Below are positions 43,271-58,828 of a DNA stretch of 64,000 nt, in pieces (position 1 is the first letter of the stretch; every line of letters begins with the position of its first letter). The notes under the pieces are model-generated. The model did no database searches and was not told where the DNA came from. It worked only from the letters and a program-made list of their open reading frames with translations. The position numbers and the translations under genes are program-made. The DNA comes from Motilibacter deserti. GTDB lineage: Bacteria > Actinomycetota > Actinomycetes > Motilibacterales > Motilibacteraceae. The DNA lies in NCBI RefSeq assembly GCF_011250635.1, contig NZ_JAANNP010000001.1, positions 395,480 to 459,479 on the forward strand, written 5' to 3'.

Positions 43271-44905
43271 TTAGAGGTGGAACCGGCCCACGACCTGGTC
43301 GAGCTCGGCGGCGGCGCGGGAGACCTCTTCGGCCGTCCCCGCGGTGTGCGCCGCGCCCGTCGTCGTCTGGGCTGCTGCGGCGGCGATGCCGGCGATGTTG
43401 GACGAGATGTCCTGCGAGCTCGTCGACACCTCGGTGACGTTGCGGACCATCTCCGCCGTGGTCGCCGACTGCTCCTCGACCGCAGCGGCGATCGTCGACT
43501 GCAGCTCGTCGATCCGACCGATGACGTCGGTGATCTGCGCGATCGCCAACGAGGCCGCCTCGGCGTCGGCCTGGGTGGCGCCGACGCGCGCCGTGATGTC
43601 ACCGGTGGCGCGGGCGGTCTCCTGCGCCAGGTCCTTCACCTCGCCCGCGACCACGGCGAAGCCCTTGCCGGCCTCGCCCGCGCGGGCGGCCTCGATGGTC
43701 GCGTTGAGGGCCAGCAGGTTCGTCTGCTCGGCGATCGAGGTGATGAGCTTGACCACGTCGCCGATCTCGCGGGACGACGCGCTCAGCCTGTCCAGCGTCT
43801 CCTGAGCGGCGCGGGCGGCAGCGACCGCGCTCGCCGCGGTGGCGGTGGCCTCGGAGGTCGACGTCGCGATCTCGCGGATCGCGGCGGTCATCTGCTCGCC
43901 GGCGGCGGCAACCGTGCCGATGTTGCCGGAGATCTGCTGGCTCGTGGCCGACACCGACTGCGCCTGGGCCGAGGACTCCTCCGCCCCCGAGGACAGCTGC
44001 GTGGCGACCCCGGTCAGCTCCTCAGACGAGGACGCGAGCGTGGTGGCATTGGCGGCGATGTCGCGGATGGTCTCGCTGAGCCGGTCCATCGTCGCGTCCA
44101 CCGCACCGGCCAGCTTGCCGACCTCGTCCCGGCTGTCGTAGGCGACGCGCTGGTCGAGGCGGCCCTCGGCGAGGCCCTCCACGACGACCAGCGTCCGGCC
44201 AAGGGGGCGGGCGACGCCGCGGGCGATGGCGTACGCGATGCCGACGCCGAGCACGACCGCGACCGCTCCGACGACGAGCAGCAGCACGACGGACCCGTGG
44301 TAGGTGTCGTTCCCCTGGTCGGCCAGGTCGACCGCGGCCTGAGCCTCGGCCGTACGGAACTCCGTCAGCATCCCGAAAAGCTCGTTCGCCGGCGGAGTCA
44401 CCTCGGCCTTGCGCAGGTCGATGAAGCCCTGGATGTCACCGGAGTCGGCGAGCGGGATGAGCTTGTCGGCGGCGGCCTCGTACTCGGCCAGCTTGGCCTC
44501 GAAGGCATCCCGGGCCTGGGCCGTCGCAGCGGGCGCGCTGGCGAGGTACGCGTCCCAGGCCTGGGTCAGCGCCTGCTGGTCCTCCTCGAGCGCGCTCTTC
44601 ACCTCGGCCCGCCCGGCCGCGTCCGGGCTGAGGCCCAGGTTGGCGTAGTCCATCCGGACCTTAAGGAGAGCCGAGCGGGTGTCCCCCACCGTCTGGACGG
44701 ACGCCACGCCGGAGGTGGACATCGTCCGCAGGCTGTCCTGCAGCCCGCCCAGGCGGTTGATGCCCACAGCGACGGCAACGATCAACAGCAGACAGACGAC
44801 CCCGAAGCCGGCAGCGAGCTTCGCGGCGACACGGAGGTTGCGCACACGGTTCAGCATGTCCAGACCATCGGACGAGTGCGCCGGTCTCTTGAGGTTATCC
44901 CCCAT
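43271..44905 (-). CDS. Methyl-accepting chemotaxis protein
   Basis: A 544-residue chemoreceptor. A first TM (about 27-49) precedes a periplasm-side four-helix-bundle sensor (about 50-205), then TM2 (about 210-232), a HAMP domain ([20 protein letters not shown]...) and a cytoplasmic signalling hairpin whose tip reads [37 protein letters not shown], nearly invariant in MCPs. It signals to CheA/CheW, so the host should have a chemotaxis system and flagella or another motility machine, not visible in this window. The start is uncertain: ATG 44905 lacks a ribosome binding site and ATG 44857 ([15 protein letters not shown]) is a plausible alternative. Confidence 0.93.
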
Positions 44906-45046
44906 GCATCATCTAGATCGGTCGAGCGGCGCGAGCGCAGCCAGGCTCCTGCCGCACGGGCTGCTGTCCGTCGTGGACGGCCCTTGGGGGGCCCGGCGAA
45001 GGTGTCGGGGCTCGCGTACCTCGTCGGGGCTTCGCGGGCGAGGCAT

Positions 45047-45092
45047 GGTGGGGCGGGTGGGGCTCGAACCCACGACCCAGGGATTATGAGTC
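45047..45092. repeat. attL: left 46-bp copy of tRNA-Met 3' end
   Basis: Identical to 58635-58680. It covers the T-arm, variable loop and anticodon loop of the tRNA (minus-strand sense) but stops before the 5' half, so it is not a functional tRNA. Sequence diverges immediately after GAGTC (TGTTCG here, CCCTG at the right copy). Confidence 0.95.
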
Positions 45093-45629
45093 TGTTCGCG
45101 GTAGGTCGTTGGCCTGGTGCATACAGCGCATCGCCGCAGGTCAGGCTCTCGCGAAGCCCTGCCCAGCCCCGCCCGCTTCTGCCTGGTCCTGTGTGTCCTG
45201 CGGACTGTGTGCGGACCGCGAGAGCCGGTCTGCGACGCCGTACAGCAAGACGCTTGAGCGTGTGCCGTCGCTCTTGACCCCGGTCATGCTTACTGGCGTT
45301 CGCGTATATGTGTGACTAGTGCCCGAGGAGTCTGACTGACATGCCGTAGCTGCGGAGCTACGCAAGGTCAGCATCATCAGCGATGTCCCAGTGCATGGGT
45401 TGGTCACGCGTCGCAACCGTCCCGCGGGGCGGCTAGGGAACAGCTCGAAGTGCGTTTCCTGTTAGCATCTCGGTCTGTGCACGAAGGCACTACATGGCCT
45501 TCGCTTGAGTGAAGGACGTGCAGGGTGATCATCCTTCACGGAAGGTCAGCGTGGGAGTTCCTCCGCCGCACGGTTCACCAGCCTCCAGATGCTCAAGCAG
45601 CAGAGCTGCCTCTACCGCGAGGAACAGCT
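45093..45629. other. Non-coding left end of the element with several hairpins
   Basis: A 537-bp stretch where I see no convincing gene. It holds hairpins GTAGCT-GCGG-AGCTAC (45346-45361), CGAAGGC...GCCTTCG (45482-45503) and GTGAAGGA...TCCTTCAC (45509-45539). The last two stand in tandem about 90-150 bases past the minus-strand stop at 45630 and could terminate the cargo operon. The string CCTGCGGACTG near 45197-45207 recurs almost exactly inside the integrase 3' end near 58553-58564; such short repeats could be integrase arm sites, but the evidence is thin. Confidence 0.5.
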
Positions 45630-46196
45630 TCATAGCCGCCCCTCGCTCTTAAGACGCTTTATCACCCGACGATTGCGGGCCTTGGTGACCAGTCGGGTGC
45701 CTTGCCACCAGCGGGACAGCTTGCCGAGCTCTCGGAGCTCACCAGTGATGGTTCGTACCCAAGTCTTCCCTGAGTTGTCTCGGAACAGTAGAACCTTGTC
45801 AAAGGCGTAGTGGTGGTCTCCGATGGCCTCCTCCTTTCCGCCGGGTAGGAGAACATCCGCTCGCACCCCCCAGCTGTCCAACACGGACCTCCCCTTAGCC
45901 AACCAGAAGACCACGTCGTAGATTGGCTCGTCACTAAGGTTGGCAACGACATAGTAAGTCCAGGTACGGTGCTTACCCTCAACCTGCTCCGGGAGCCGGG
46001 CACGCCGCTCGGTATAAAACGCCACCTTTCTCGCCTGTTCACGGCGCCGAACCTTGGCGTCGCGCCTGATTACGTAGAAGGTGGCGAAAAAGGCAAGCGA
46101 TGTGCCCGTGGCGGACACCCACTGCCCGAGGGTGCCCCAGTTCTGCGCGTCGAAGTGCGGCGTCTGAAGTGCGGCGACCAACGCATCGCTAGACAT
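45630..46196 (-). CDS. Single-TM membrane protein of unknown function
   Basis: A 188-residue protein. One transmembrane helix (about 22-44, WVSATGTSLAFFATFYVI) is followed by a basic, helical stretch (RRDAKVRRREQARKV) and a soluble domain (about 65-188) with WTYYVVANLSDEPIYDVVFWLAKG, FDKVLLFRDNSGKTWVRTITGELREL and a very basic tail ending KRLKSEGRL. The C-terminal part looks beta-rich, as in small defence-island membrane proteins, but I do not recognise the family. It is the last gene of a minus-strand run (MazG, HNH protein, this gene), 57 bases after the HNH stop. Confidence 0.65.
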   Translation of the reverse strand: MSSDALVAALQTPHFDAQNWGTLGQWVSATGTSLAFFATFYVIRRDAKVRRREQARKVAFYTERRARLPEQVEGKHRTWTYYVVANLSDEPIYDVVFWLAKGRSVLDSWGVRADVLLPGGKEEAIGDHHYAFDKVLLFRDNSGKTWVRTITGELRELGKLSRWWQGTRLVTKARNRRVIKRLKSEGRL

Positions 46197-46253
46197 CGCT
46201 TGTCCTACGAGTGAAACCCACTCCGGGTGTGCGTCGCCTGCTTGCCTGCCTTA

Positions 46254-47198
46254 TCATCGGCGCTCCCGGGAGTGCCGGCTGGCGTGAGCGGCGAAGTACT
46301 CGCCCATCCGCGCGGTATGGCCGAGCACGGCTTTGCCTGCGAGACGCGCAATTGCGTTGTTCAAGTCTTCTGTTGCAACAGTCAACTTCTGATTCCGAAC
46401 CACCCTGCCCGTCTCGTCGACCATCACAAAGCCTCGCTCAAACAGTTCGTCGCAGCCGAGAGTGCATGCCGGCATCATATTGGCGGAATCCAAACGTTCC
46501 GCGGTCGTAGAATCAGCTCGCCGCTTGATGTGCGCCAATCTCAGAAGCGATATGGGCAACTCCCGATGACATAGGCTGCACGCTAGTGACGCGTGCCGCC
46601 CGAGGATTGCGCGCCGGAACTGCTTCTGCTCCTTCCGCACTAGGGCAAGTGCCAGGCCGTCTAGCCCCTCAAGCCCGGATAGTAGTCGGTCGGGAACTAG
46701 CGGCTCGTCGTCGTCTGGCACTGGATCGTCGTCCTCGTCCAAAGGTGGCGGGCCGACAACGGGCATACCCCTGTGATGCACCGCCCCATGCACGGCTTCG
46801 ATTCGCGCCTCTCCCCGTACTGCCAGCGGCGCGCCTGGCAGCTCAATCGGGGAATCCAGTGCCACTCGGTAGGGGTAGACGTCGTTCTTCCATAACGGCG
46901 TCGTGTCCTCGCGTAGAGGTCGAACGACCCGCGCAACTGTGACCGAGTTCAGTGACGCATGGCGCCAAGCCGGATGATGCAGAGGAGTGCGTGGCCATCC
47001 CGAAGGCGGATCAGTGGTCTTGACCCCTTGAGCGAAGACAAGGTAGGTCGGCCTGGACAACGCGCGCAACTGATCCATTGCTGCGTCGACCTCCGCACCC
47101 AGAGAGTCCTGCTTCCAGCCCCATGTGAGGTTGTTCAACCCGGTGTTGAAGTTTTTCTTGGCAGCCTTACCCGCGTAGACGTACAAGTACCGCGACAT
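46254..47198 (-). CDS. HNH endonuclease with an EVE/PUA-like N-terminal region
   Basis: A 314-residue protein. The C-terminal HNH module (about 205-262) has zinc knuckle CSLC (207-210), LAHIKRR with His223, SANMMPACTLGCD with Asn240, and a nearby DELFERGF. Residues about 1-140 (YLYVYAGKAAKKNFNTG, TWGWKQ, WRHASLNSVTVARVVRPL, YPYRVALDSPIEL) resemble the base-reading EVE/PUA fold seen in modification-dependent HNH endonucleases; this part is tentative. An acidic linker (DEDDDPVPDDDE) lies at about 154-165. If right, it would cut DNA with modified bases, as carried by some phages. The start is 9 bases after the MazG gene stop, so both are probably one operon. Confidence 0.7.
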   Translation of the reverse strand: MSRYLYVYAGKAAKKNFNTGLNNLTWGWKQDSLGAEVDAAMDQLRALSRPTYLVFAQGVKTTDPPSGWPRTPLHHPAWRHASLNSVTVARVVRPLREDTTPLWKNDVYPYRVALDSPIELPGAPLAVRGEARIEAVHGAVHHRGMPVVGPPPLDEDDDPVPDDDEPLVPDRLLSGLEGLDGLALALVRKEQKQFRRAILGRHASLACSLCHRELPISLLRLAHIKRRADSTTAERLDSANMMPACTLGCDELFERGFVMVDETGRVVRNQKLTVATEDLNNAIARLAGKAVLGHTARMGEYFAAHASRHSRERR

Positions 47199-47207
47199 CT
47201 CTTCCCC

Positions 47208-47543
47208 CTAGCGATCCCGACTCCACTTGCCGCGCCACTCCGCCGCGGGGAACCGGGCCTCGTTCCGTTCGATCTTGTCTGTCACAGCAGTCTGCAGGTC
47301 TACACCGACCACGTCCGCGAAACGCAGAAGATAGATGAAGACGTCAGCTAGCTCATCCTGAAGCCTGCTACTCGAGACGGAGGCGTCGTCAACGACCCAC
47401 TGATACAGCTCTGCTAGCTCGCCAACCTCGCCTATCAGCGCAAGCAGCAGGTTCTTCGGGGTGTGGACCCGGGTCCACTCACGCGCCTCCGCGAAGTCCC
47501 TCAGCCGAGCCTGCGTTGCAGCGGTCCAGTCCTGCTCCGACAT
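47208..47543 (-). CDS. MazG-like nucleotide pyrophosphohydrolase
   Basis: A 111-residue all-helical NTP pyrophosphatase of the MazG/dCTPase (RS21-C6-like) type. The metal-binding pattern ExxE...ExxD is visible: EVGELAELYQW with Glu39 and Glu42, and QDELADVFIYLLRFAD with Glu64 and Asp67; the distance fits the dCTP pyrophosphatase-like subgroup. It hydrolyses (d)NTPs to monophosphates. In a mobile defence island it may remove modified phage nucleotides or lower the dNTP pool. ATG 47543 has AGGA at 9 bases; an ATG at 47552 is also in frame. Confidence 0.85.
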   Translation of the reverse strand: MSEQDWTAATQARLRDFAEAREWTRVHTPKNLLLALIGEVGELAELYQWVVDDASVSSSRLQDELADVFIYLLRFADVVGVDLQTAVTDKIERNEARFPAAEWRGKWSRDR

Positions 47544-48119
47544 GGAAGACATCCTGCACGAGGCGGTTGCCGCGACACAGGCCAACCGTAGATGCGGTGG
47601 TGCCGCGTGACCCCGGATCGTTGAGTGTGTTCCCAACAGGGGGATGACCAGGCCTGAGGACGTGTTGACGCAGGTGAACGGCTCTTCCGTTCCGCCGGAG
47701 ACCGATTACACCTCCCCACGCACCCCTAGTTTGCGGACTGCCTGCGACTGCTCGAGCCTTAGCGCACCGTGCCTACGGCGCTACCCGCGCTGATGTCTGT
47801 CGGTGTCCCCGAGGCCGCCTACGGCTGCTCGTGGAGGGCAACTTCACGCTCGGACCCGGTTCGACCATCAGTCCCTGCAAGGGCCAGTTCTGTGACGAGA
47901 ACTGGCTCCTCCGGAGAGTGGACGAAGCGACGGCCTCCGAGGAGTCTCCCTGGTCACGACGGCAGCCGGCCGCATCTTGACCCGGGGATGCTGGCACACG
48001 ACAGCTTCATTTGGGCACGTCTCGCGTGTAGGTCTAGCTGACGAACTGCTACCGCCGAAGTAGGTCCGGAGAAACTCCGCACGTTCGCGCGGCTGGACGA
48101 ACAAGCAAGCCATCGACGG
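47544..48119. other. Gene-free stretch between ATPase and MazG genes
   Basis: 576 bp in which I find no reading frame with family-like sequence or a credible ribosome binding site. It must hold the 3' end signals of the nuclease-ATPase operon and the promoter for the MazG-HNH-membrane run. Base composition is like the rest of the element. Confidence 0.5.
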
Positions 48120-50018
48120 CTACTTCAGGTACTCACGTGGCATACGGATGACATGAGCTGCCTTCATAGCTCCGCGCACTGGTTTAGCCTGAGTGCTCAC
48201 TACCTGCGTACGGGTCTCCAGCGCAGCGTCAAATAGGAGGCGCAGCGCCACCTCAACTCGGGCGTCAGGTAGGCCATGCTGGTAGGGGTTGTCCAGAAGC
48301 AGAAGACCCGGGGGGCAAGCACGGTCACCCAAGTCAAGCTGAAGGTAGAGGATGGCGTAGCTGTACGCAAAGAAGAAGAGGACGCGCGCCTCGGCTCCCA
48401 ACTGCTGATCCCAAGGGCGCGACCCGACGAAGAAGGTCATGTCGTCGCCGTTCAGCACCACATAGTCATGACCCCACCCATTCCCGGAGAAGTTGCGTAG
48501 GAACTCATTCATCCTCCCGGCGAACACGGTACATCGATCCGCGATCTCCCGGCGGGGATCGGGCAGGTCTCTGGCCTGTTGCAATAGGTCATCGAGTACG
48601 GCCTCGGCATCCTCGACGGCGGCAACTGCTACCTCAACTTCCTTGTAGATCGCGCGCACGGCGGGAAGTGAAGCCAACTGGACTTCTACCCGGGCCTGCC
48701 GCGCAGCGAGTTCCTCTAGAGCAGCCACGAAAGGAGCGAGCACTGAGGCTCTCTCATTGTTTAGCCGACCCGCTAGTTCCGCCCGTTTCTGCCCCAGGTG
48801 CGACAAGCGGCTGCTTTCATTCTCAAGGTCGACTAGCGCATCCGAGATGGCGTCATTCAAGTCAAGGATTTCGGAGGCCAGGGCACGCTTCTCGATCTGA
48901 GCCCGTCTCTTGCGTTGGTCAGGAGATACAGGCTGACTACAGACGTAGCATTCGCCAGACTCTTGACGAGCCCTGCGACTGACCGTCTGGGCACAGGCGG
49001 GGCAGACGCGGACAGGTGTTTCGTCGAAGACGTCGACGGCGGAGATCAACCGATCAAGTCGGTCTTGATCCAAGACAGCCTCAGCTAGGGAGTGCCTATG
49101 TTCTTCCAATACAGATTCCAAGCCGGCCACGGCCTGTGCTGCCCGCGTCTCAGCCTCGGCTACAGCCTTGTACTGCTCTCCGAGATTACTGTCGTGCCCG
49201 GCGGCAGTGGCCGCCCCAGCTTCGGCCCCGCGCTCAGTTATGTCTCGACGTGCTCCCTCGATCTCCGCCAGAGCTGCTAGCAAGTGTTGTCGCGCCTGGT
49301 CCAAGTCCTCCGCTCCTTCTGCTGGCGGAAGACCAAGTTGGCGCAGAACGGCGCCCGCCGCCGCGTCAGCAGTTTCACGAGCCTGGGCCGCCACGATTCG
49401 TCGGGCGATCAACTGTCGGTCGGCCTCGACGATGGCATACTCAACGTTGTTGTACCTTTCTGGCGCAAGCCCTAAGAAGTAAGTTGTTACAGCCCGACGC
49501 AGGTACTCCTCCTCCTTGTTGGCGAACGACGTCCAAGACTCCTCATTCCGATGGACGTGTCTTAATAGAGCTCTGAAAGTCAGCGGAATCAGCTTGGATG
49601 CCATCTGAACGTTCTGCGCCATCGGTATGGTCAGAACCGGCCAGTCGAGTCTACTGAGCGCCCAAGTGGAGAACTCTTCGGGCGAGAGCAGGCTGCCGTC
49701 TACCTCAACTCTCCCGATAGACCCATGTTCGAGACGTCGGACGATCTCATGAATGTTTCCACGGATTCGGACCGTCAGCCTAAACTCGGCGTACTTTTCG
49801 GCGATCGACGAGCCGACCCGGTGCTGCGGCCCTTTAGTTGAACCAAGCACGTAATGGATGATCTTGAGCGTCGTAGTCTTCGACGAGTTTGGTGGGCCGT
49901 ACAGGATGGTGTGCGAGCTCGTGAAAGAGAACTCTTCGATTTCGCCGTTATTAGTGACAAGCACGAGCCGCAGCACGCGCAGTCCCTCCGGAACATCGAT
50001 CGATGCGCGTGCGCTCAC
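48120..50018 (-). CDS. SMC-like ABC ATPase with zinc hook (LmuB-like / ABC-3C ATPase)
   Basis: A 632-residue ATPase. N-terminal Walker A region GPPNSSKTTT (41-50), then two coiled-coil arms (about 195-330 and 365-500) flanking a zinc hook with CPAC (339-342) and CYVC (357-360), as in Rad50/SMC proteins. The C-terminal ATPase half has Walker B LLLLDNPYQ (572-580). The Gly before the P-loop Lys is Ser, and Asn stands where most ABC ATPases have the catalytic Glu; LDSP/LDNP-type Walker B variants are characteristic of conflict-system ABC ATPases. GTG start overlaps the stop of the middle gene (GTGA). It probably senses aberrant DNA ends or replication intermediates and releases the nuclease. Confidence 0.85.
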   Translation of the reverse strand: MSARASIDVPEGLRVLRLVLVTNNGEIEEFSFTSSHTILYGPPNSSKTTTLKIIHYVLGSTKGPQHRVGSSIAEKYAEFRLTVRIRGNIHEIVRRLEHGSIGRVEVDGSLLSPEEFSTWALSRLDWPVLTIPMAQNVQMASKLIPLTFRALLRHVHRNEESWTSFANKEEEYLRRAVTTYFLGLAPERYNNVEYAIVEADRQLIARRIVAAQARETADAAAGAVLRQLGLPPAEGAEDLDQARQHLLAALAEIEGARRDITERGAEAGAATAAGHDSNLGEQYKAVAEAETRAAQAVAGLESVLEEHRHSLAEAVLDQDRLDRLISAVDVFDETPVRVCPACAQTVSRRARQESGECYVCSQPVSPDQRKRRAQIEKRALASEILDLNDAISDALVDLENESSRLSHLGQKRAELAGRLNNERASVLAPFVAALEELAARQARVEVQLASLPAVRAIYKEVEVAVAAVEDAEAVLDDLLQQARDLPDPRREIADRCTVFAGRMNEFLRNFSGNGWGHDYVVLNGDDMTFFVGSRPWDQQLGAEARVLFFFAYSYAILYLQLDLGDRACPPGLLLLDNPYQHGLPDARVEVALRLLFDAALETRTQVVSTQAKPVRGAMKAAHVIRMPREYLK

Positions 50019-50602
50019 AGCGCGATCCTCGACCTCATAGCAGCGTCGCCTACTTCTCTCGGAAACAGCTCGTAGATGAGCTCCTTGAGTTCCGTCCCAG
50101 ACATCTTGGCTAGGGTTCCTGACATCACCGCACACCTCGATACGATGGGGCCGAACTCAGGACGGGACACGAGCCGGTCCGCAACGTCAACTCCTGCTCG
50201 CGTCAGCACGTACCTCTCAACCTTGCGGCCCTTGCGCACAGACAGCAGCTTTCGGGTCTCCAGGAACGACACGAAGTTCCGATACCTCGGGTCCCAGGGG
50301 CCGTACCGATAGCGAATCATGGGAGCCTCGATCTCCCCGTCGCTCACAGCGGAATGTGATCCCGCCTCACCTTCGAGCCCTTGCAACTGAGCTAGTGCCC
50401 GCTGCAAGAACTCGGGGTAGCGGACGAAGAAGTCGAGCTTGGCGAGCTTGGTCCTACCCGTCAGGGTCGGCACGTCGGGTTCCTCACTACACAAGCGGAA
50501 CAGGATCAATAGCCTCGCCGCGTGGAACTCAGGGCTCTCGTCAGGGTCCAAAGGGCGGTGCAGGGGTGGAACAAGCGCCGCCCCAACCTCAAGAATCGGC
50601 AT
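50015..50602 (-). CDS. Middle component of Lamassu/ABC-3C-like system
   Basis: A 195-residue winged-helix-type protein. The stretch TGRTKLAKLDFFVRYPEFLQRAL (about 48-70), then PMIRYRYGPWDPRYRNFVSFLETRKLLSV and YVLTRAGVDVADRLV, is characteristic of the middle (MC/LmuC-like) proteins that sit between the effector and the ATPase. It likely bridges the nuclease to the SMC dimer. Start overlaps the end of the nuclease gene by 14 bases; its stop overlaps the ATPase start by 4, so all three are translated as one operon. Confidence 0.8.
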   Translation of the reverse strand: MPILEVGAALVPPLHRPLDPDESPEFHAARLLILFRLCSEEPDVPTLTGRTKLAKLDFFVRYPEFLQRALAQLQGLEGEAGSHSAVSDGEIEAPMIRYRYGPWDPRYRNFVSFLETRKLLSVRKGRKVERYVLTRAGVDVADRLVSRPEFGPIVSRCAVMSGTLAKMSGTELKELIYELFPREVGDAAMRSRIAL

Positions 50603-51665
50603 ATCGGTTCACACACCGAGCGGTCACGTCGTGCAAGGCACCCTGCAGCAGCCGATTGCCAGCGGCGGGGAACTGCGCCGATCCGGCCGCTGTCACGGCC
50701 TTCAGTGTCTCGAGATAGGCGGTCTGCGGGTCTTGGATTCTGCCCGCCCGTCTAGCTGCCATCACTAAAGCACAAGCCGCGTACACCTCGTCCGCGATTT
50801 CGTCGAACTCGCGGCGCCGCTCGCCAACAGCATCTCGACGCGCGCTCCTGAAGCTGCGCAACTGTGCTTGTGCTGCTCGAATCTCCGCGTCAGGCAGTTT
50901 GACCGGCCGCAACTTCTCCTCGAGAGTTGGTTGTGGCACCGCGGCGATAGCGCGACCATCACCGCACACGCGATTGGCTACTTTGACGAGCAGAGCGAGG
51001 AAGCTTTCCCGGTTGTGATGCTCCACCTTGCTGGCCCTGGCGCTGCGGGCAACGGCTTCAAGTAGTTGCGCTATGACCTCTTCAACCTCAGCCAGCAAGA
51101 CGCCCGTGCTTGTAACTTGCTCGACTTGAGGCGCAATCCTCTGAGCAGCTTGGCGCTCAAGGTCCTCAATACTGCGGCTTGAGACAATGACTCGAAAGCC
51201 ACGGAGGCAGCCGGCAACGCTGAAGCCATCAGGAAGCCGAAGACCTTGTAGCCGCTCACAGACGTCTTTGATCGCGCGTTGAGGTACAGGCGCTTCGGCG
51301 AGCTTCTCGGGGGAGAAGGCGTACAAGTCTCGCAGCGGAGTCTCGTTCAGTACTAGGTCAAACCTGTCCCCGATAGTGAGACGCTTGCCCGAGAATAAAC
51401 GCCCCAAAATGCTCGTTGCCGGGTTGCCGCCCACTTCTGGACGGCACACGCTCGCAATGCTGTGTCGCGAGCCAGGGCCTTCAAGTGTCTTGACCTGCCT
51501 ATAGATTGAGCCGCGCTCGTCCGAGCAGTGGATGTCCTCGTCAGATTCCCAGCCAACTGAATGATAGGTACCGGCACAGAGCTCCAGACAATCCATGAGC
51601 GTTACCACGTCTTGGTACGCGAACCCGCGCCGACTGCGACGACCTCCCCCGCCCGGTCCGTGCAC
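50589..51665 (-). CDS. Cap4/DUF4297-type dsDNA nuclease effector (LmuA-like)
   Basis: A 358-residue protein. The N-terminus RGFAYQDVVTLMDCLEL (13-29) with VGWESDEDIHCSDERGSIYRQVKT (37-60) is the DUF4297/Cap4 nuclease: acidic Glu40 and Asp42/44 and the QVK motif (57-59) form a PD-(D/E)XK-like active site. The C-terminal 150 residues are helical (LRPVKLPDAEIRAAQAQLRSFRSARRDAVGERR) and probably tether it to the partner proteins. As the toxic effector it would degrade DNA once the ATPase is triggered by phage. GTG start at 51665; it is the first gene of the operon. Confidence 0.82.
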   Translation of the reverse strand: MHGPGGGGRRSRRGFAYQDVVTLMDCLELCAGTYHSVGWESDEDIHCSDERGSIYRQVKTLEGPGSRHSIASVCRPEVGGNPATSILGRLFSGKRLTIGDRFDLVLNETPLRDLYAFSPEKLAEAPVPQRAIKDVCERLQGLRLPDGFSVAGCLRGFRVIVSSRSIEDLERQAAQRIAPQVEQVTSTGVLLAEVEEVIAQLLEAVARSARASKVEHHNRESFLALLVKVANRVCGDGRAIAAVPQPTLEEKLRPVKLPDAEIRAAQAQLRSFRSARRDAVGERRREFDEIADEVYAACALVMAARRAGRIQDPQTAYLETLKAVTAAGSAQFPAAGNRLLQGALHDVTARCVNRYADS

Positions 51666-52133
51666 CCCTATGCCCTCGCTCCCCGTCAGCGAATTGTCCA
51701 GACGCGGGATGCTACTTGCTTAGACGCGTGATCCGCGGCAAGTTGACAGGTTGCGTCACGGGCGCAGCGGTCCACGCGCCCCCCTGACGCGCCGCTACGC
51801 CTACGCCAAGTGGGCGGTCTGCCACCAGAGCGCCAACCAGAGGCGTCGAGTCGACTGGCCGTCTGGTGGGCTTCCCGACGCGAGGGGAGAGCGCCTGGGC
51901 ACCACAGGATGACCAGCAGAAGCCACACAAGGGCGAGCTGACGGTCGCTCGCCCGCTGCTCTGCCTGCGTCGCGGAGGCAGCTGCGGTGGGCGCCGTCAA
52001 CCGGGGCGTGCACCGAGCGGGGCGACGTTTCCGAGCATGTCCCCTTCTCGGCAGGCGACGACAGGGCTAGTCTCCCGGTTCGAAGGCGAACTACGTCTCT
52101 CGCTTCAGCCGACTCACATAACCGGGGGAACCA
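51666..52133. promoter_or_regulatory. Divergent intergenic region of two defence modules
   Basis: 468 bp between the nuclease operon (minus) and the helicase-nuclease gene (plus). It must contain both promoters. No convincing gene or clear promoter consensus can be fixed by eye. A GGGGGAA lies about 9 bases before the helicase GTG start and acts as its ribosome binding site. Confidence 0.5.
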
Positions 52134-54626
52134 GTGGCAGGTCTTGACTTCGGCCGACTAGGCGGGCTTTCCGCCTCCGACACGGAAGTGCACCCCCGGG
52201 AAATCTTCGCTGCGCTGCCGGAGAAGATTTCGAAGTTTGAGTACCTGCGCGACGTGCAGCGTGAAGTCTTCAACGCCTGGTACGAGCGGCGCAAGCAACG
52301 CGACGTCGTAATCAAGATGAACACGGGGAACGGCAAGACAGTGGTGGGGCTGCTGCTACTGAAGAGCGCCCTAAACGAAGGTGCCGGGCCCGCTGCGTAC
52401 TTCACCCCGGACAACTACTTGGCGGATCAGGTCGAACAGACCGCGCGTGAGCTTGGTCTTAGGACCTCGCGCGACCCTAGAGACCCGATGGTAGCCGCCG
52501 GCACCGCGATTCTTGTGACGAATCTGAAGACCTTGTTCAATGGCAGGAGCAAGTTCGGCGTCGCCTCTGAGGGGCGCAAGATCAAGCTCGGTACCGCTTT
52601 GATCGACGATGCGCACGCATGCTTGTCCGTCACCGAAGAACAGTTCCAGTTGCGCATCCCTTCGAACCACGACGCGTACAAGGCACTGCTATCGCTCTTC
52701 GAGGCCCCGCTACAAGACCAGTCCCCGGCCCAGTTCCTTAGTCTGAAGGACGGGGACCGTACGGCTGCGATGCTCGTACCAGCATGGAGTTGGTTCGACG
52801 AGCAGAAGCGCGTGATAGCTACCTTGCATCCTCACCGGCAAGATGCCGAGTTCGAGTGGACGTGGCCCCTGCTGCTCAATGCGCTCCCCTTCTCTCGGTG
52901 CGTATTCACGCCTGAGGCAGTCGAGATCAAGCCCTACTTCCCGCCGGTGCAGGAGGTGCCGAGCTTCGATCAAGCAGCGAGACGCATTTACCTGACCGCG
53001 ACACTGGCCGATGACAGCGTGCTTGTCACCCACTTCGCCGCCTCGGCGACCTCTGTACGTGAGCCAATCACGCCGAGCGCGGCAGACGATATCGGTGACC
53101 GAATGATCATCGTTCCACAGAGCGTTCAGCCGAGCTGGACCGACGACCAGATCAAGGGCTACCTCGCCGAGCTCGCGCAGCGCCGCAACGTCATCGTCAT
53201 CGTCCCTTCTAATTCGCGAGCCAAGTACTGGGGTGACGTGGCGGCTGCGACACTCACCGCCAGCAATCTGCAGGCTGGGGTGACACGACTGAAGGCTGGG
53301 CACGTTGGACTCGTCGTGCTCGTCGGCAAGTACGACGGCGTGGACCTGCCGGACGACGCCTGTCGAGTCCTGGTGATCGATGGGCTGCCGGAGTACTACA
53401 GCGGGGTGGAGCGCGTCGAGGCATCCGCGTTGAGCGACACTATGGCGATGACTGGGAGGCACCTCCAGCGGATTGAACAGGGCATGGGCCGAGGTGTCCG
53501 CTCACGAGACGACTACTGCGTAGTTCTGCTACTAGGGGCCAAACTGGTGTGGCGTCTACACGACGCCCCTGCGGCAGAGTTATTTGGACCCGCTACGAGG
53601 GCGCAGATGGCGCTGTCAAAGGAGGTTGCAAGTCAGCTCTCCTCGGGAGACTTGGACGACCTCAAGGCTGCGGTCGAGCAGTGCCTCCAGAGGGTTCGAG
53701 GCTGGACCACTGCTAGCCGCAACGCCTTGGTGGGCGTCAAGTATGGACCCGGAGCGGTACAGCCGGCCGCTGAACATTCCCGTCGAGCCTTCGAGCTTGC
53801 TCTGCAGTCACGGTACGGCGAGGCGCAGGGGGCTCAGCAGATGGCCGTGAACGCCCTCGCTGAACCGAGAGAACGCGGATGGCTTAAGCAGATGCTCTCC
53901 GCCTATCTACATCCGGAAGATGCTGTGCGCGCCCAAAAGAACCAGATGAGTGCACTGGACGACAACAGGGCGCTGCTTAAGCCTGAGCAAGGTATTGCCT
54001 ACGTTAAGCTGAAGGGAGCCGCGGGACAGCAGGCTGTGGCTGCGAGTGAATTCCTGTCCGCCACCTACGAAAGCGGCCAGGAGTTGCTGATCGGCGTCAA
54101 CGCGATGTTGGCCGATCTCGACTTCGATGACGACCCGCTACGAGTAGACAGCTTCGAAGAGGCCGTCGCGAATCTGGGTCGGCACCTCGGCTTCGTGACC
54201 CAACGGCCCGAGAAAGACTTCAAGCGCGGACCGGACGGACTGTGGGCACTCGGTGGCCTCAACTATCTCGTCATTGAGTGCAAGAGCGGTGCGGTCACAG
54301 ACTTCATCCGGAAGAAGGACCTTGACCAACTCTCCGGCGCGGTGAGTTGGTTCCATACCGAGTACGAGGACCCCGCGGCCTGCACACCTGTGATGTTTCA
54401 CCGGGTGAGCAAGCTTCACCAAGAAGCTTCAGCTGCACCCGGCACCCGCGTGGTCACCGAGGCGCAGCTGACGAAGTTGCGAACCGCGGTGCTCCAGGTG
54501 GCCACCGCCCTTGCGGTCGACGACGCTTTCCGGAACCCTGACTTGGTCGGTGAACAACTCCGCTTGCGAAAGCTGCAGGGTCGAGGAGTTGTCGAGGCGT
54601 ACGCGTCGAGCACACTCATGCCCTAG
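52134..54626 (+). CDS. SF2 (DinG/XPD-like) helicase with C-terminal PD-(D/E)XK nuclease motif
   Basis: An 830-residue protein. Helicase motifs: I MNTGNGKTVVG (62-72), II LIDDAHACLS (156-165, DDAH box), III LTATL (287-291), and VI EQGMGRGVRSRDD (448-460), giving a DinG/XPD-like order but without the Fe-S cysteine cluster. Residues about 670-740 (SFEEAVANLGRHLGFVTQ, GPDGLW, YLVIECKSGA) fit a restriction-type nuclease core: Asp701 and Glu715-x-Lys717. A linker of some 200 helical residues joins the two. Motor plus nuclease in one chain on a mobile element suggests a stand-alone anti-phage or restriction-like protein. GTG start. Confidence 0.82.
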   Translation: MAGLDFGRLGGLSASDTEVHPREIFAALPEKISKFEYLRDVQREVFNAWYERRKQRDVVIKMNTGNGKTVVGLLLLKSALNEGAGPAAYFTPDNYLADQVEQTARELGLRTSRDPRDPMVAAGTAILVTNLKTLFNGRSKFGVASEGRKIKLGTALIDDAHACLSVTEEQFQLRIPSNHDAYKALLSLFEAPLQDQSPAQFLSLKDGDRTAAMLVPAWSWFDEQKRVIATLHPHRQDAEFEWTWPLLLNALPFSRCVFTPEAVEIKPYFPPVQEVPSFDQAARRIYLTATLADDSVLVTHFAASATSVREPITPSAADDIGDRMIIVPQSVQPSWTDDQIKGYLAELAQRRNVIVIVPSNSRAKYWGDVAAATLTASNLQAGVTRLKAGHVGLVVLVGKYDGVDLPDDACRVLVIDGLPEYYSGVERVEASALSDTMAMTGRHLQRIEQGMGRGVRSRDDYCVVLLLGAKLVWRLHDAPAAELFGPATRAQMALSKEVASQLSSGDLDDLKAAVEQCLQRVRGWTTASRNALVGVKYGPGAVQPAAEHSRRAFELALQSRYGEAQGAQQMAVNALAEPRERGWLKQMLSAYLHPEDAVRAQKNQMSALDDNRALLKPEQGIAYVKLKGAAGQQAVAASEFLSATYESGQELLIGVNAMLADLDFDDDPLRVDSFEEAVANLGRHLGFVTQRPEKDFKRGPDGLWALGGLNYLVIECKSGAVTDFIRKKDLDQLSGAVSWFHTEYEDPAACTPVMFHRVSKLHQEASAAPGTRVVTEAQLTKLRTAVLQVATALAVDDAFRNPDLVGEQLRLRKLQGRGVVEAYASSTLMP

Positions 54627-54779
54627 TGCAGTGTCGGAGCGGCCACCGAGCGCTGCCGGTGGCCCTCCGGCCTGCCTTCCCTGCCACAACAACAGAAATC
54701 CGTAATGAGTCGCTTATGCTGTCGCGGCTCGGCTAAGGCATGTCTCTGATGTTGAGCGCGTTCGGCTTGATGATCCTGG

Positions 54780-55196
54780 GATGAAGCGCGGATCGCTGCT
54801 GATGACATTCGGGCTCGGGGCGAGCCGGTGCTCCCGCAGGTCGAAGGGAGGATGGGTCCGGCGACACCTTGGCCCTGCCCGAGCTGCTGACCGAGCAGCG
54901 GGTCCCGCGGAGGGGGCGGGGCGGTCCCCGCACCACGCCGCAAGCGCGGCGCAGGGACAAGGCGTACTCCTCGCGCAGGACCCGCGCGCCTGCGCTCGCA
55001 AAGCCAGGGCGTGACGCCCGAGCCCGCCGACCAGAAGCAGCACCGCAAAAACCGCATCTCGGCCGGCGGGCGGCCATTGAGGCTTCGACGCCGTGAATCA
55101 CAAACGCCGTAACGTCTTAGGGCGCTCGCTCAACACCGAACAGTGGCGAGGCCTCACCAGCCGCCACGACAAGCTCGCCCTCGTTCAGCTTGGCGG
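54780..55196 (+). pseudogene. IS5-family transposase remnant, frameshifted
   Basis: Translated pieces match the C-terminal half of IS5-type DDE transposases. In one frame (about 54866-55096): TLALPELLTEQRVPRRGRGG, then PRTTPQARRRDKAYSSRRTR, the 'RPRTRPDRVRADKAYSSR' region of these enzymes. After a stop, the next frame (from 55093) continues NHKRRNVLGRSLNTEQWRGLTSRHDK, the 'YKRRNVVERCFNRLKQWRGLATRYDK' region with its Glu lost. A preceding piece (about 54830-54865) corresponds to the 'LLTPGQ' stretch. Frameshifts, stops and loss of both ends show it is dead; no terminal inverted repeats found. Confidence 0.75.
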
Positions 55197-55249
55197 AATG
55201 TCCTCCGCGCGACCACCCCTTCTGGGGGTCATGACCTTCCAGACACGCC

Positions 55250-55450
55250 CTAGTCCCGTCGCCGTGTCTTCACCCTGTACTCGCTTGGTGCTTGACTACG
55301 GAAAGTTTCTCCTGCCTCGATCCTTCGCTTGTTGCGCCAGGCGGCTGCGCAGTGACTACACGCCCACCCGGCCTGCAACATCGTGATCTCGTCGCCCGCT
55401 CCGAAGGTCTCTCCCCCCAGGGCGCAGGTGCCACTGTATCTCGCTTGCAT
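55250..55450 (-). CDS. Small putative zinc-binding protein
   Basis: A 66-residue reading frame, MQARYSGTCALGGETFGAGD, then EITMLQAGWACSHCAAAWRN. It resembles short actinobacterial proteins that start xARYxGTCxxCG and carry a second Cys pair (CSHC here); the first knuckle has only one Cys (TCALGG). GAAGGG lies 7 bases before the ATG. It may be real but decayed; it lies between the dead transposase and a gene-free region. Confidence 0.4.
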   Translation of the reverse strand: MQARYSGTCALGGETFGAGDEITMLQAGWACSHCAAAWRNKRRIEAGETFRSQAPSEYRVKTRRRD

Positions 55451-55967
55451 GTGTATTGCCCTTCTGTTGGTGCCAACATCGACAGGTGATGCTGAGTGCA
55501 GTGCTCGAGGCCCTTGGCGCCTCGACCCCTTACATTTCGCCTTACATGCCCCCCCACATGAGTGGCACTACTCGTTCGTAAGGCAGGTGGCTGGCGCACG
55601 CATATGCGCAGGTCAGCGGTGGGAAGGACTCGGTAGCCGCTCGCGGCCATGTACCACAGCTTCGTTCTTTGAGCCGATGCGGAGAACTTCTGCAAGAAGC
55701 ACGAGTTACACCGGATGCGGCGCAACTCCCAGCAGGACCACGACACTGGCAGGCGCACCCTGTCGTCCTACTGCCGACCGGGCGCACCCTCGCGGCCTGG
55801 TGGCTCCACCAAACGTGTACCGCACAGACGGCTTGACGTTAAGCAGCAGGGCGCTCACGCCTTAGAGGAGAATCACTCAGCCCCACGCTTGTTCTCTCTC
55901 TATAGAGCTGTCCGGCGTCACCGCAGGTCAGGGCCGCTGTCCGGGGACCAGGACTACCGCTTGAGCG
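55451..55967. other. Gene-free stretch within the element
   Basis: 517 bp with only short, unconvincing reading frames on both strands and many in-frame stops. Likely degraded DNA beside the IS remnant. Nothing else recognised. Confidence 0.45.
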
Positions 55968-56477
55968 TCACGCTCGGAATCCGCGCTTCCTGGCCTTGAG
56001 CCCTTCGGCGAGCTGTAGAGGATCGATCCAGCCGCCGCTCAAGCCGCCAGTCCAGGAGAGTTGGTGACCGTGGGTCGAGCACGGTGCCGGTCGGTACTTC
56101 ACGTCCGCATCCCAAACCTCCATGGGCAGGACAACGCAGCGATCCGTCGATGCCGGTGAGATCAAGCCCTGTTCCATCAGCCGCCTCAGTGTGTTCCTTA
56201 CATGGCGGTCGCCGTACGGCCGGACCTCTCCGGTGTTCTTCTGCAGATGCAGAAGGTCTGCTTGCAACTGTCCCTCCTCAAAACGAGCGTGTCCCCCTGG
56301 ACCTGCGATCGCCGTCGCCAACAGGAAGAGCCTGAGGTCAAGGCTCAGTTCCGTACCCTGCCGTGCGATGCGCCCGCACGCGGGACCGTGCAACTTGCCC
56401 CAAAGGAGGGTCCATCCTCCAGGGAAACGGGGGCGGGCAGCAGGAGCGTTCGGCACGTTAGCTCGTGGAGTGTTCAC
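55968..56477 (-). CDS. Element-type helix-turn-helix protein (replication/regulation-like)
   Basis: A 169-residue basic protein. GTG start at 56477 overlaps the excisionase stop (GTGA). Conserved-looking parts are GGWTLLWGKLHGPACGRI (about 16-33), LFLLATAIAGPGGHARFEEGQLQADLLHL and VRNTLRRLMEQGLISPAST, which reads as a winged-helix DNA-binding unit. The C-terminal HGHQLSW follows a Cys/His pair. Similar proteins occur beside integrase/excisionase genes in actinobacterial integrative elements, with assumed roles in control or replication; none is established. Confidence 0.6.
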   Translation of the reverse strand: MNTPRANVPNAPAARPRFPGGWTLLWGKLHGPACGRIARQGTELSLDLRLFLLATAIAGPGGHARFEEGQLQADLLHLQKNTGEVRPYGDRHVRNTLRRLMEQGLISPASTDRCVVLPMEVWDADVKYRPAPCSTHGHQLSWTGGLSGGWIDPLQLAEGLKARKRGFRA

Positions 56478-56641
56478 GTCGTGGCCTGCCGGTTCAGCCA
56501 CTCTTCCACATCCTGATGCCGAAACCGAAGCTGCTTGCCGAGACGCAGTGCGGGCAAGTCGCCCACATTGTTGTAGACCCAAGACTTGGGCTTGGCGATG
56601 TAGCTCGCCAAGTCCTCCACGGTGAGCAATCGTTCGCTCAT
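56474..56641 (-). CDS. Excisionase-like MerR/AlpA-type helix-turn-helix protein
   Basis: A 55-residue DNA-binding protein: LLTVEDLASYIAKPKSWVYNNV, then PALRLGKQLRFRHQDVEEWLNRQ, the standard AlpA/excisionase winged helix ending in DVxxWL. It probably directs excision by the integrase encoded 0.8 kb away. ATG start at 56641 has GAAAGG 9 bases upstream. About 180 bases separate it from the divergent gene at 56823; that gap is A/T-richer and should hold both promoters. Confidence 0.85.
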   Translation of the reverse strand: MSERLLTVEDLASYIAKPKSWVYNNVGDLPALRLGKQLRFRHQDVEEWLNRQATT

Positions 56642-56822
56642 TGTTAGACCTTTCGTGACGGTGACAGGACTCGCGTTGCGATCCGAGAGCTTCATCGGCC
56701 CCAGGTTCAGACACCTGTGGCGCCAACCTGGGGATGATTCGCTGCTAGACTAAGAGCCCCTAGGTTCCACCGAGCTACCCTTGAACCTGGGTAGGAGAAG
56801 CACGAGTGCGAGGTAGGCGGGG

Positions 56823-57461
56823 TTGGAAGAGCGAGTGATCTTGTCTCGTGCCGATGTCAAGCGCGGGCTCTATGAGCACGTCGTTGCAGTCGGAGGGTGG
56901 TGTGTGGTGATCACTCTCGGCATGCAGGCGTCTCGTCTCGTAGTCGCCGAGTTGCGCGTAATCCCGTGGTTGGAGGGCCTGCCGGAGGACACGGAGCCGG
57001 CTTGGCCAGGGACCGCTGACGCCGTCGAGCAACACGTGCCCGAAGGAGGCCTCACGACCTCCGCGCTCGGCGCGCTTCACCTGGGTCGCCTCGTCGAGCA
57101 GGCGAGAAGGGAGGCGCGCGTCGCGATCCCTGTCTTGGAAGCCGAAGGCGAACAAGCGGCAGGCATATGGGCAGGCAAGCTCCGTGAGGAGCGGCGCGCG
57201 GTCGGACGGCGTGGCTACGACGACGGGTACTACGCGGAGGTCGCACGCGACTTCGCTCGCGAGCGTCTCCGAGGCGGTCGGGGACCGATCAAGCGCCTGG
57301 CGGCTCAGTGGTTCGTCTCCGAGGAGACAGCACGCAACCGCGTCCAAGAAGCGCGACGGCGTGGCCTTCTGACTTCCGCACGCCCGGGACGAACCGAGGG
57401 CGAGCTGACCGACCGAGCACAAGAGCTGCTGATTCAGCGAGAGGAGCAACACGGTGGCTAG
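56823..57461 (+). CDS. Element-borne protein with C-terminal DNA-binding-like region
   Basis: A 212-residue protein. The start is uncertain: TTG 56823 or GTG 56835. Residues about 95-140 are charged and helical, and the C-terminus GPIKRLAAQWFVSEETARNRVQEARRRGLLT is a helix-turn-helix that resembles repressor/WhiA-like recognition helices. Proteins of this arrangement lie directly upstream of, and overlap, integrase genes in actinobacterial elements. Its stop overlaps the integrase start by 8 bases. It may be a regulator of integration; function not known. Confidence 0.6.
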   Translation: MEERVILSRADVKRGLYEHVVAVGGWCVVITLGMQASRLVVAELRVIPWLEGLPEDTEPAWPGTADAVEQHVPEGGLTTSALGALHLGRLVEQARREARVAIPVLEAEGEQAAGIWAGKLREERRAVGRRGYDDGYYAEVARDFARERLRGGRGPIKRLAAQWFVSEETARNRVQEARRRGLLTSARPGRTEGELTDRAQELLIQREEQHGG

Positions 57462-58632
57462 CGCGACAAAGCGCGGACAGGGCAGATGGCTCGGGCGGTA
57501 CCGCGGCCCGGATGGCAGAGAACGCACGAAGACGTTCGCTACGAAGCGCGACGCTGAGCGATGGGCGCAGGAGCAGGAGCGGAAGGTCCGGACGATGGAC
57601 TGGACCGATCCGGTGCTCGCGAAGACGACGATCGCAGAGTGGGCCGATCACTGGGTCACGACGCTGCACGTCGCGCCAAGCACGCTGGACTCCTACCGCT
57701 CGATTCTTAGGGGGTTGGTGATTCCCCGGTGGGGAGCCCTACGGCTGGATCAGGTGACGTTCACGGCGGTGCAGTCATGGGTGGCGGGCATGACCGGTGC
57801 GAAGGGGCAGCTCCTCAGCGCCTCACGCCGACGACATGCGGCGCACCTTCTGACCGCGATGCTGGACGCTGCGGTCGCTGACGGGCGTCTTCCGAAGAAC
57901 CCGGCACGCCCTCAGGGAGGCGCCGGGAGGAAGGGCATGCTGCCCAAGCTGCCTGCAACGGGCGGGCATCGCTACCTGCGGCACGAGGAGCTGCAGAAGC
58001 TCGCGGCTCACGCGGCGTCGTACGAGACGCTGGTCCTCGTTCTCGGCTACTGCGGGGTGCGCTGGGGAGAAGCTGCCGCACTCAGGGTCCGGTCCGTTGA
58101 CCTGCTGCGCGGGCGGCTTCTGGTCACGGAGTCTGTGTCGGAGGTGGAGGGCGGGCTCTCCTACGGGCCGACGAAGACGCACCAGGCCCGAACCGTCCCG
58201 GTGCCCTCGTTCCTGCGCAAGCAGCTCGACGCCCTGATGGAGGGCAAGTCGCCGGACGACCTCCTGTTCACGTCGCCTGAGGGCGCGTCGCTGCGCAACG
58301 GCAACTTCCGCAAGCGTGTGTTCCTCCCCGCGATTAAGGCTTCAGGCCTGCCCGCTCTCCGTATCCACGACCTGCGGCACACCGCCGCGTCGCTTGCGGT
58401 CGCCTCCGGGGCGAACGTCAAGGCCGTGCAGAAGATGCTGGGGCACGCCAGCGCCACGATGACGCTGGACACGTACGCGGACCTGTTTGATGACGAGCTG
58501 GACGCCATCGCCGAGCGGATGGACGAACGCGCTGCGCAGGCGCGTGCGGACTCCCTGCGGACTGCGGACGGCTCAACCTTGGTTTCGCTGCCCGCGTCAG
58601 AGGTGCAGCAGGTCGCTGACTTGCGCAGATGA
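57454..58632 (+). CDS. int: Site-specific tyrosine recombinase (integrase)
   Basis: A 392-residue phage-type integrase. N-terminal arm-binding domain (about 1-50, GRWLGRYRGPDGRERTKTF), SAM-like core-binding domain (about 60-150), catalytic domain with Arg203 (CGVRWGEA), Lys241 (TKTHQAR), His305 and Arg308 (HDLRHTAAS), His331 (LGHAS) and nucleophile Tyr341 (TLDTYADL). All catalytic residues are present, so it should be active. It ends 2 bases before attR in the tRNA gene. GTG start at 57454. Confidence 0.96.
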   Translation: MASATKRGQGRWLGRYRGPDGRERTKTFATKRDAERWAQEQERKVRTMDWTDPVLAKTTIAEWADHWVTTLHVAPSTLDSYRSILRGLVIPRWGALRLDQVTFTAVQSWVAGMTGAKGQLLSASRRRHAAHLLTAMLDAAVADGRLPKNPARPQGGAGRKGMLPKLPATGGHRYLRHEELQKLAAHAASYETLVLVLGYCGVRWGEAAALRVRSVDLLRGRLLVTESVSEVEGGLSYGPTKTHQARTVPVPSFLRKQLDALMEGKSPDDLLFTSPEGASLRNGNFRKRVFLPAIKASGLPALRIHDLRHTAASLAVASGANVKAVQKMLGHASATMTLDTYADLFDDELDAIAERMDERAAQARADSLRTADGSTLVSLPASEVQQVADLRR

Positions 58633-58634
58633 TC

Positions 58635-58680
58635 GGTGGGGCGGGTGGGGCTCGAACCCACGACCCAGGGATTATGAGTC
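58635..58680. repeat. attR: right 46-bp repeat within the tRNA-Met gene
   Basis: Identical to 45047-45092. It covers the 3' half of the intact tRNA gene from the anticodon stem to 2 bases past the discriminator, so integration leaves the tRNA whole. Confidence 0.95.
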
Positions 58681-58710
58681 CCCTGCTCTGACCGGCTGAG
58701 CTACCGCCCC
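58637..58710 (-). tRNA. tRNA-Met (anticodon CAT)
   Basis: Minus-strand cloverleaf with acceptor GGGGCGG / CCGCCCC, D-arm GCTC...GAGC, anticodon stem GGGGA/TCCCT around loop CTCATAA (anticodon CAT), and T-arm GTGGG-TTCGAGC-CCCAC; discriminator A. Elongator Met is most likely; Ile with a lysidine-modified CAU is the alternative. It is the integration site of the adjacent element. Confidence 0.88.
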
Positions 58711-58756
58711 CGACGGCCGAGGCCGCAGCCCGACTCTGCCATCCCGGCCCGGCCCG

Positions 58757-58828
58757 GCGCAGCCCGACCCGCCCAGCACGGCACAGCCCGACCCGCCCAG
58801 CACGGCGCAGCCCGACCCGCCCAGCACG
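58757..58828. repeat. 24-bp tandem repeat, three copies
   Basis: Three consecutive 24-base units with core CAGCCCGACCCGCCCAGCAC (58757-58780, 58781-58804, 58805-58828); the middle unit differs by one base (GCAC for GCGC). Next to the tRNA-Met 5' end, in a gene-free stretch that runs to 59303. Confidence 0.9.

Follow-up and report, generated by a model that had tools for sequence, protein, structure and literature searches.

A DCTPP1-like MazG gene beside a predicted modification-dependent HNH nuclease on an actinomycete integrative element

Introduction

Type IV restriction enzymes have, to our knowledge, no cognate methylase that marks self. The closest described relative of the nuclease reported here is VcaM4I (PDB 6YEX), a protein of about 310 amino acids with an N-terminal reader of the PUA superfamily and a C-terminal HNH domain. 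In the structural account of VcaM4I (PMC7897488), the reader holds a flipped 5-methylcytosine (5mC) or 5-hydroxymethylcytosine (5hmC) through P24, W82 and Y130, and the enzyme requires H224, D250 and D254, with N241 playing a structural part. EVE-HNH architectures are treated as putative modification-dependent enzymes in PMC7641849, and the legend to Fig. 9 of that article, which states no mechanism, describes MutT homologues adjoining SauUSI homologues. Among enzymes of the nucleotide pool, the closest described protein is dCTP pyrophosphatase 1 (DCTPP1, or RS21-C6), whose favoured substrates are given in PMC4491611 as dCTP, 5-methyl-dCTP and 5-halo-dCTP. MazG, for its part, is listed in a 2026 survey as a predicted and unvalidated defence domain (PMC13092281). 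In the literature that we searched, we found no description of MazG or DUF2075 with EVE-HNH nucleases and no paper on a gene set of helicase, MazG, reader and nuclease.

Here we analysed a 64,000-nucleotide stretch of Motilibacter deserti DNA (the window), in which a gene encoding a DCTPP1-like MazG protein is followed directly by one encoding a predicted VcaM4I-like nuclease. Like the MutT and SauUSI neighbours, the pair sets a pyrophosphohydrolase of the nucleotide pool next to a type IV restriction gene; it differs from them in having MazG instead of a NUDIX protein and an HNH enzyme instead of SauUSI, and it also differs from VcaM4I in that the nuclease has MazG next door. The pairing gives MazG a concrete context and a candidate substrate.

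The locus and its integrative element

A preliminary description of this DNA had proposed a module of three genes, encoding MazG, an HNH endonuclease and a one-transmembrane (TM) protein. We recovered the same gene order on the minus strand at the same coordinates (Table 1), with 9 bases between the MazG and HNH genes and 57 bases between the HNH and TM genes, and all three open reading frames were also picked by a codon-position gene caller. A promoter/terminator scan found no promoter-like site, and its three terminator-like sites, against 1.7 by chance, are uninformative.

Searches of Pfam, PADLOC and NCBIfam assigned the product of the third gene to no family, and PHROG gave a weak match (E = 0.015). 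The best 19-residue Kyte-Doolittle mean, over the hydrophobic segment at residues 25-43, was 1.09, and because this segment is modest the one-TM call keeps only modest support: likely, not strong. No homologue was detected by tblastn (E < 0.01) in loci L002-L052 or by profile in loci L002-L062; homologues, mostly partial, occur in 5 of 296 genomes of the class, the window's own included, and a paralogue lies elsewhere in the same genome. A three-gene module in which the TM protein serves as a last-line membrane effector would fit the shared strand and the 57-base gap. Against it stand the lack of homologues around the nuclease in every locus scanned, their small number and mostly partial length elsewhere and a weak TM score; the module is unsupported and we consider it very improbable. 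We therefore regard the TM gene as a neighbour that lies where the element ends, and the locus is a two-gene pair with one neighbour rather than a three-gene module.

The trio had been placed in a defence island, a setting that can now be sharpened: the pair and the TM gene sit at one end of a 13.59-kb tRNA-Met integrative element (45047-58680), the ends of which are a perfect 46-bp repeat, and the element also carries Lamassu and PDC-S28 genes. In the one congener compared (G064), the insert is absent, and about 240 bp with an intact tRNA-Met separate the two flanks; a gene at 43271-44905 is likewise missing from that congener. The Lamassu-type operon (48120-51665) lies upstream of the pair on the same strand, and both it and the PDC-S28 gene are cargo separate from the MazG-HNH pair. 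A gene at 56823-57461, encoding a helix-turn-helix DNA-binding protein (phrog_11473, E = 1e-6), overlaps the start of the integrase gene and is a candidate excision or regulatory gene. We also observed that the tRNA-Met segment of G064 has the opposite orientation to that of the window with respect to the flanking DNA (L109 compared with 45035-45092 and 58632-58774).

Table 1. Features of the gene pair, its neighbour and the integrative element (positions in the window)
Feature	Position	Strand	Remarks
Distal end repeat, 46 bp, identical to the tRNA-Met 3' end	45047-45092		
Third protein, probably one-TM	45630-46196	-	188 aa
EVE/YTH-type reader and HNH endonuclease, predicted VcaM4I-like	46254-47198	-	314 aa
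HNH domain of the HNH protein	46257-46673	-	residues 176-314
Reader domain of the HNH protein, PUA-superfamily fold	46749-47198	-	residues 1-150
MazG, DCTPP1-like all-alpha NTP pyrophosphohydrolase	47208-47543	-	111 aa; Pfam MazG-like and MazG above cut-off
LmuB, Lamassu-type	48120-50135	-	
LmuC, Lamassu-type	50015-50602	-	
LmuA, Cap4-type nuclease, Lamassu-type	50589-51665	-	
PDC-S28 candidate defence helicase	52134-54626	+	profile matched over almost its full length, E = 6e-298
Tyrosine integrase, beside tRNA-Met	57454-58632	+	
Second copy of the 46-bp repeat	58635-58680		inside tRNA-Met (58635-58710)

Reader and nuclease domains of the HNH protein

The HNH protein matched no Pfam or NCBIfam family. 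Its C-terminal part gave a weak PADLOC 'HNH' match (E = 1.7e-4) and a match to phrog_14240 (E = 5e-14); with the protein as query, phage records returned no match, and a search of the window's own genome with Pfam HNH_2 returned none either. We aligned the protein with those from 16 of the 33 loci found by the profile scan described below, giving 17 rows, and at E <= 10 a Pfam scan of these rows detected HNH_2 weakly in nine of them and EVE or YTH in none. An AlphaFold model built with this alignment as input had a mean pLDDT of 84 (about 91 in the reader). VcaM4I was the best Foldseek match to the model (E = 5e-9) and the sole match in a sequence-profile search of the PDB (E = 1.4e-8, over the HNH part); the reader alone matched no PDB sequence at E <= 10. 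In VIA-align, too, VcaM4I came first, superposed on the whole model with Z = 12.0 over 239 residues and an rmsd of 15.8, from which it follows that the orientation of the domains differs between the two; the HNH part aligned with TagI (Z = 10.0, rmsd 3.2, 110 residues). When model residues 1-160 were compared, YTH domains scored Z = 9-9.6 (the best with rmsd 3.2 over 123 residues). Two archaeal proteins that we take to be EVE-type folds scored 8.8-9.3 (MJECL36 9.3, PH1033 8.9), so that EVE and YTH tie within 1 Z. The N terminus had earlier been suspected of reading modified bases; in these model comparisons it matched a reader fold, of EVE/YTH type within the PUA superfamily, and not an unrelated one.

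The putative active site, H223, N240, D250 and E254, is invariant in 17 of 17 rows and aligns with H224, N241, D250 and D254 of VcaM4I. The two proteins have in common the H, N and D of the active site and an acid four residues on, and the replacement of D254 by E254 is a conservative substitution. They differ in their cysteines, as the HNH domain of the window protein contains two pairs (C207/C210 and C245/C249) and VcaM4I has one cysteine in the aligned stretch. The readers are unrelated in sequence, that of the window being of the WGWK type and, in fold, as close to YTH as to EVE. Residues Y8, N16, G20, W26, G27, W28, W103, Y108 and R111 are invariant in the family; W26, W28, W103 and Y108 may form an aromatic pocket of the kind that P24, W82 and Y130 provide in VcaM4I. 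Together, the fold matches and the active site suggest that the HNH protein is probably a VcaM4I-like modification-dependent nuclease with an N-terminal EVE/YTH reader of the PUA superfamily.

The host genome encodes a C5-cytosine DNA methyltransferase and a D12-type DNA methyltransferase; adenine methylases are among the members of the D12 class. Searches of the genome for PF02384 and PF01555 methyltransferases found none. A host without DNA methylation is ruled out by the C5 and D12-type enzymes. Because both are present, a nuclease that cut all 5mC or all N6-methyladenine (m6A) should be harmful to its host, and the nuclease must therefore need a sequence context or another modification. 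It is conceivable that the reader recognizes m6A as YTH domains do, that MazG acts on another nucleotide and that the link to cytosine is coincidental. The dominance of YTH among the reader's fold matches, with Z up to 9.6, and the lack of PF02384 and PF01555 enzymes in the host are consistent with such a reader, but the host has its D12-type enzyme, PH1033 and MJECL36 match the reader equally well (Z about 9), and VcaM4I, the best match to the whole protein, reads 5mC and 5hmC according to its structural account (PMC7897488). We judge an m6A reader to be improbable.

Relationship of MazG to DCTPP1

The earlier assignment of the first gene as a nucleotide pyrophosphohydrolase is borne out by its Pfam matches (Table 1). 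As a single sequence, the MazG protein matched DCTPP1 with E = 1.1e-19. A profile of seven MazG rows matched DCTPP1 at 3.4e-36 and 4qgp, a structure named only 'pyrophosphatase', at 2.7e-28, and other MazG-type structures, MazZ included, at 5.4e-6 or weaker, which places the protein, by sequence comparison, closest to DCTPP1 rather than to other MazG proteins. Its metal motifs are intact, both ExxE (E39, E42) and ExxD (E64, D67), and seven of the eight pocket residues given for DCTPP1 in PMC4491611 are kept (W47, E63, E66, W73, E95, D98 and Y102). The metal motifs and both pocket tryptophans are thus common to the two proteins; the differences are a shorter loop between helices and a leucine (L14), invariant in 7 of 7 rows, in place of the eighth pocket residue, His38, which is a docking-derived cytosine contact and not a defining catalytic residue. 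MazG probably degrades free DNA precursors, and these may be modified nucleotides. DCTPP1-like MazG proteins (E <= 1e-15) occur in 103 of 393 genomes of the class, mostly away from nucleases of this kind; being so widespread, DCTPP1 likeness alone is no sign of defence.

MazG could instead act as an effector, depleting infected cells of dCTP as the nuclease attacks modified phage DNA, so that replication is aborted and self is not protected. Such depletion would agree with the description of canonical dCTP as a substrate that DCTPP1-type enzymes also hydrolyse (PMC4491611) and with the place of MazG among defence domains that are predicted and not validated (PMC13092281). However, MazG has no visible sensor or switch, is small and is an ordinary gene in many genomes too, and we regard depletion as quite unlikely.

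Recurrence of the MazG-nuclease pairing

To survey the surroundings of related nucleases, we collected loci from four sources: the window HNH protein searched against 393 genomes of the class (17 genomes with a match); genome contigs scanned with the A1 profile (33 loci); plasmids (15 matching records, of which the regions of 13 were taken in); and the MazG-linked HNH protein of L049 used as a query, which matched in 25 of the 393 genomes and in 22 plasmid records and added six more plasmid regions. Removal of duplicates left 69 distinct reader/HNH loci, among them that of the window. In 13 of these 69, a MazG gene or a remnant of one lies within 1.5 kb of the reader/HNH gene, mostly on the same strand and directly upstream of the nuclease. 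MazG is readable in ten loci (the window, L013, L046, L049, L051, L056, L059, L063, L114 and L137) and a remnant in three (L004, L055 and L136); the MazG of L137 is divergent. In L114, a single open reading frame (865-1989) spans MazG and the reader, and stop codons interrupt the nuclease part that follows. MazG is also directly upstream in two of six loci from the IMG/VR viral collection (L146 and L148).

The L049 query had been chosen for its MazG, so the figure free of this bias is that from searches with the window's protein only. Of the 42 non-window loci found in these, 5 have MazG, which is intact in 4; this tally omits L016 and L017, two weak places in class genomes that match no profile. 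Among 27 non-window reader/HNH places in the 393 class genomes, three have a MazG of this type within 1 kb, compared with about 0.004 expected for a mean genome of 5.4 Mb, a count biased upward by the use of a MazG-linked protein as one of the two HNH queries. In L046, L049 and L059, loci of other actinomycetes, the gene immediately upstream of the reader-HNH gene encodes a DCTPP1-like MazG, as in the window; in L063 the neighbour of such a MazG is a reader protein on the other strand. These four loci differ from the window in reader subgroup. These data show that the pairing of MazG with a reader-HNH nuclease is recurrent, and we consider this well supported. The interpretation in the preliminary description is therefore partly supported: MazG and the reader-HNH gene do recur together, whereas a homologue of the TM gene was never near them in the loci searched, leaving the inclusion of that gene wrong or unsupported.

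The four nearest HNH relatives of the window protein (L020, L021, L022 and L033; 41-57% identity) all lack MazG, so the pair is seen once in the window's own clade, and no other nucleotide-pool enzyme was present among the ten neighbours scanned around L020, L021, L022, L028 and L033. We built a tree from 59 HNH domains (123 columns, modest resolution), omitting L104, a duplicate of the window, and two long rows. On it the MazG label changes eight times, at least seven of which are forced by well-supported (starred) branches, and in the starred set that joins the window to its three nearest rows only the window has MazG. Intact MazG elsewhere pairs with the L049-type reader subgroup, which is different from the window's; beside window-type readers, the only other MazG is the L004/L036 remnant. 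The label changes point to repeated gain or loss of MazG along the HNH tree. At L033 (9995-12648), we observed a window-type reader-HNH gene present as two open reading frames and adjoining an Eco57I-type DNA methyltransferase.

Such a pattern raises the possibility that the nuclease and a housekeeping-type DCTPP1-like MazG came to lie side by side by chance on a gene-collecting mobile island. The closest HNH relatives without MazG would be as expected, as would the frequency of DCTPP1-type MazG in the class (103/393) and the presence of unrelated systems on the same element. On the other hand, chance would have to account for 13 of 69 loci with MazG within 1.5 kb and for three of 27 class places against about 0.004, as well as for the predominance of one strand and one position, directly upstream, and for the fused frame in L114. 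Independent cargo is, in our assessment, unlikely, and a functional link between MazG and the nuclease is probable.

Proposed mechanism

On the basis of these comparisons, we propose that the locus has at its core two genes, carried by a mobile defence element, that form a type IV-like restriction unit of a modified-base nuclease and a dCTP or modified-dCTP pyrophosphatase, and we put the probability of this reading at roughly 0.5. When DNA enters the cell, the N-terminal EVE/YTH-type domain would recognize a modified base by flipping it out, and the C-terminal HNH domain would then cut nearby, as in VcaM4I. The DCTPP1-like MazG would remove dCTP, 5-modified dCTP or both from the nucleotide pool. 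Modified cytosine, for example from 5-methyl-dCTP or 5-hydroxymethyl-dCTP of salvage or phage origin, could in this way stay out of new host DNA, and the nuclease would spare host DNA that lacks it. MazG may also starve the phage of modified precursors.

A more specific and tentative form of this proposal is that hygiene of precursors takes the place of DNA methylation, the modified-dCTP pyrophosphatase keeping modified bases from host DNA and denying them to the phage. We hold this to be possible rather than likely. In its logic such a pair would resemble a toxin-antitoxin system with the nucleotide pool as its point of action, and it may have been assembled or lost repeatedly, in combination with varying readers and often also with a helicase of the Schlafen type. 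A recurrent DCTPP1-like partner would offer a testable answer to the autoimmunity of type IV enzymes when modified nucleotides enter the pool.

Helicase-linked loci

The survey also exposes a wider gene set of helicase, MazG, reader and nuclease. A Schlafen-group-3 (SLFN-g3/DUF2075) helicase, the usual third partner of the MazG-nuclease pair, was found within 3 kb in 22 of the 69 loci, L033 and L131 among them on weak scores. L046, L049 and L063 carry it, and in L059 it lies farther off; the window differs from them, with no such helicase at the locus of its pair (L072) and none above the cut-off in its genome. In L063, L066, L070 and L073, we observed a DCTPP1-like MazG adjoining this helicase, also with other nucleases (in L066, an HNH_2 protein), and the association of helicase and MazG is a wider family than the reader-HNH loci. 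A model of the L049-type nuclease was poor (pLDDT 57); its Foldseek matches, VcaM4I (E = 7.6e-4) followed by 6p0g, the reader of Thermococcus gammatolerans McrB (E = 5.8e-3), give a hint that this subgroup may share their fold.
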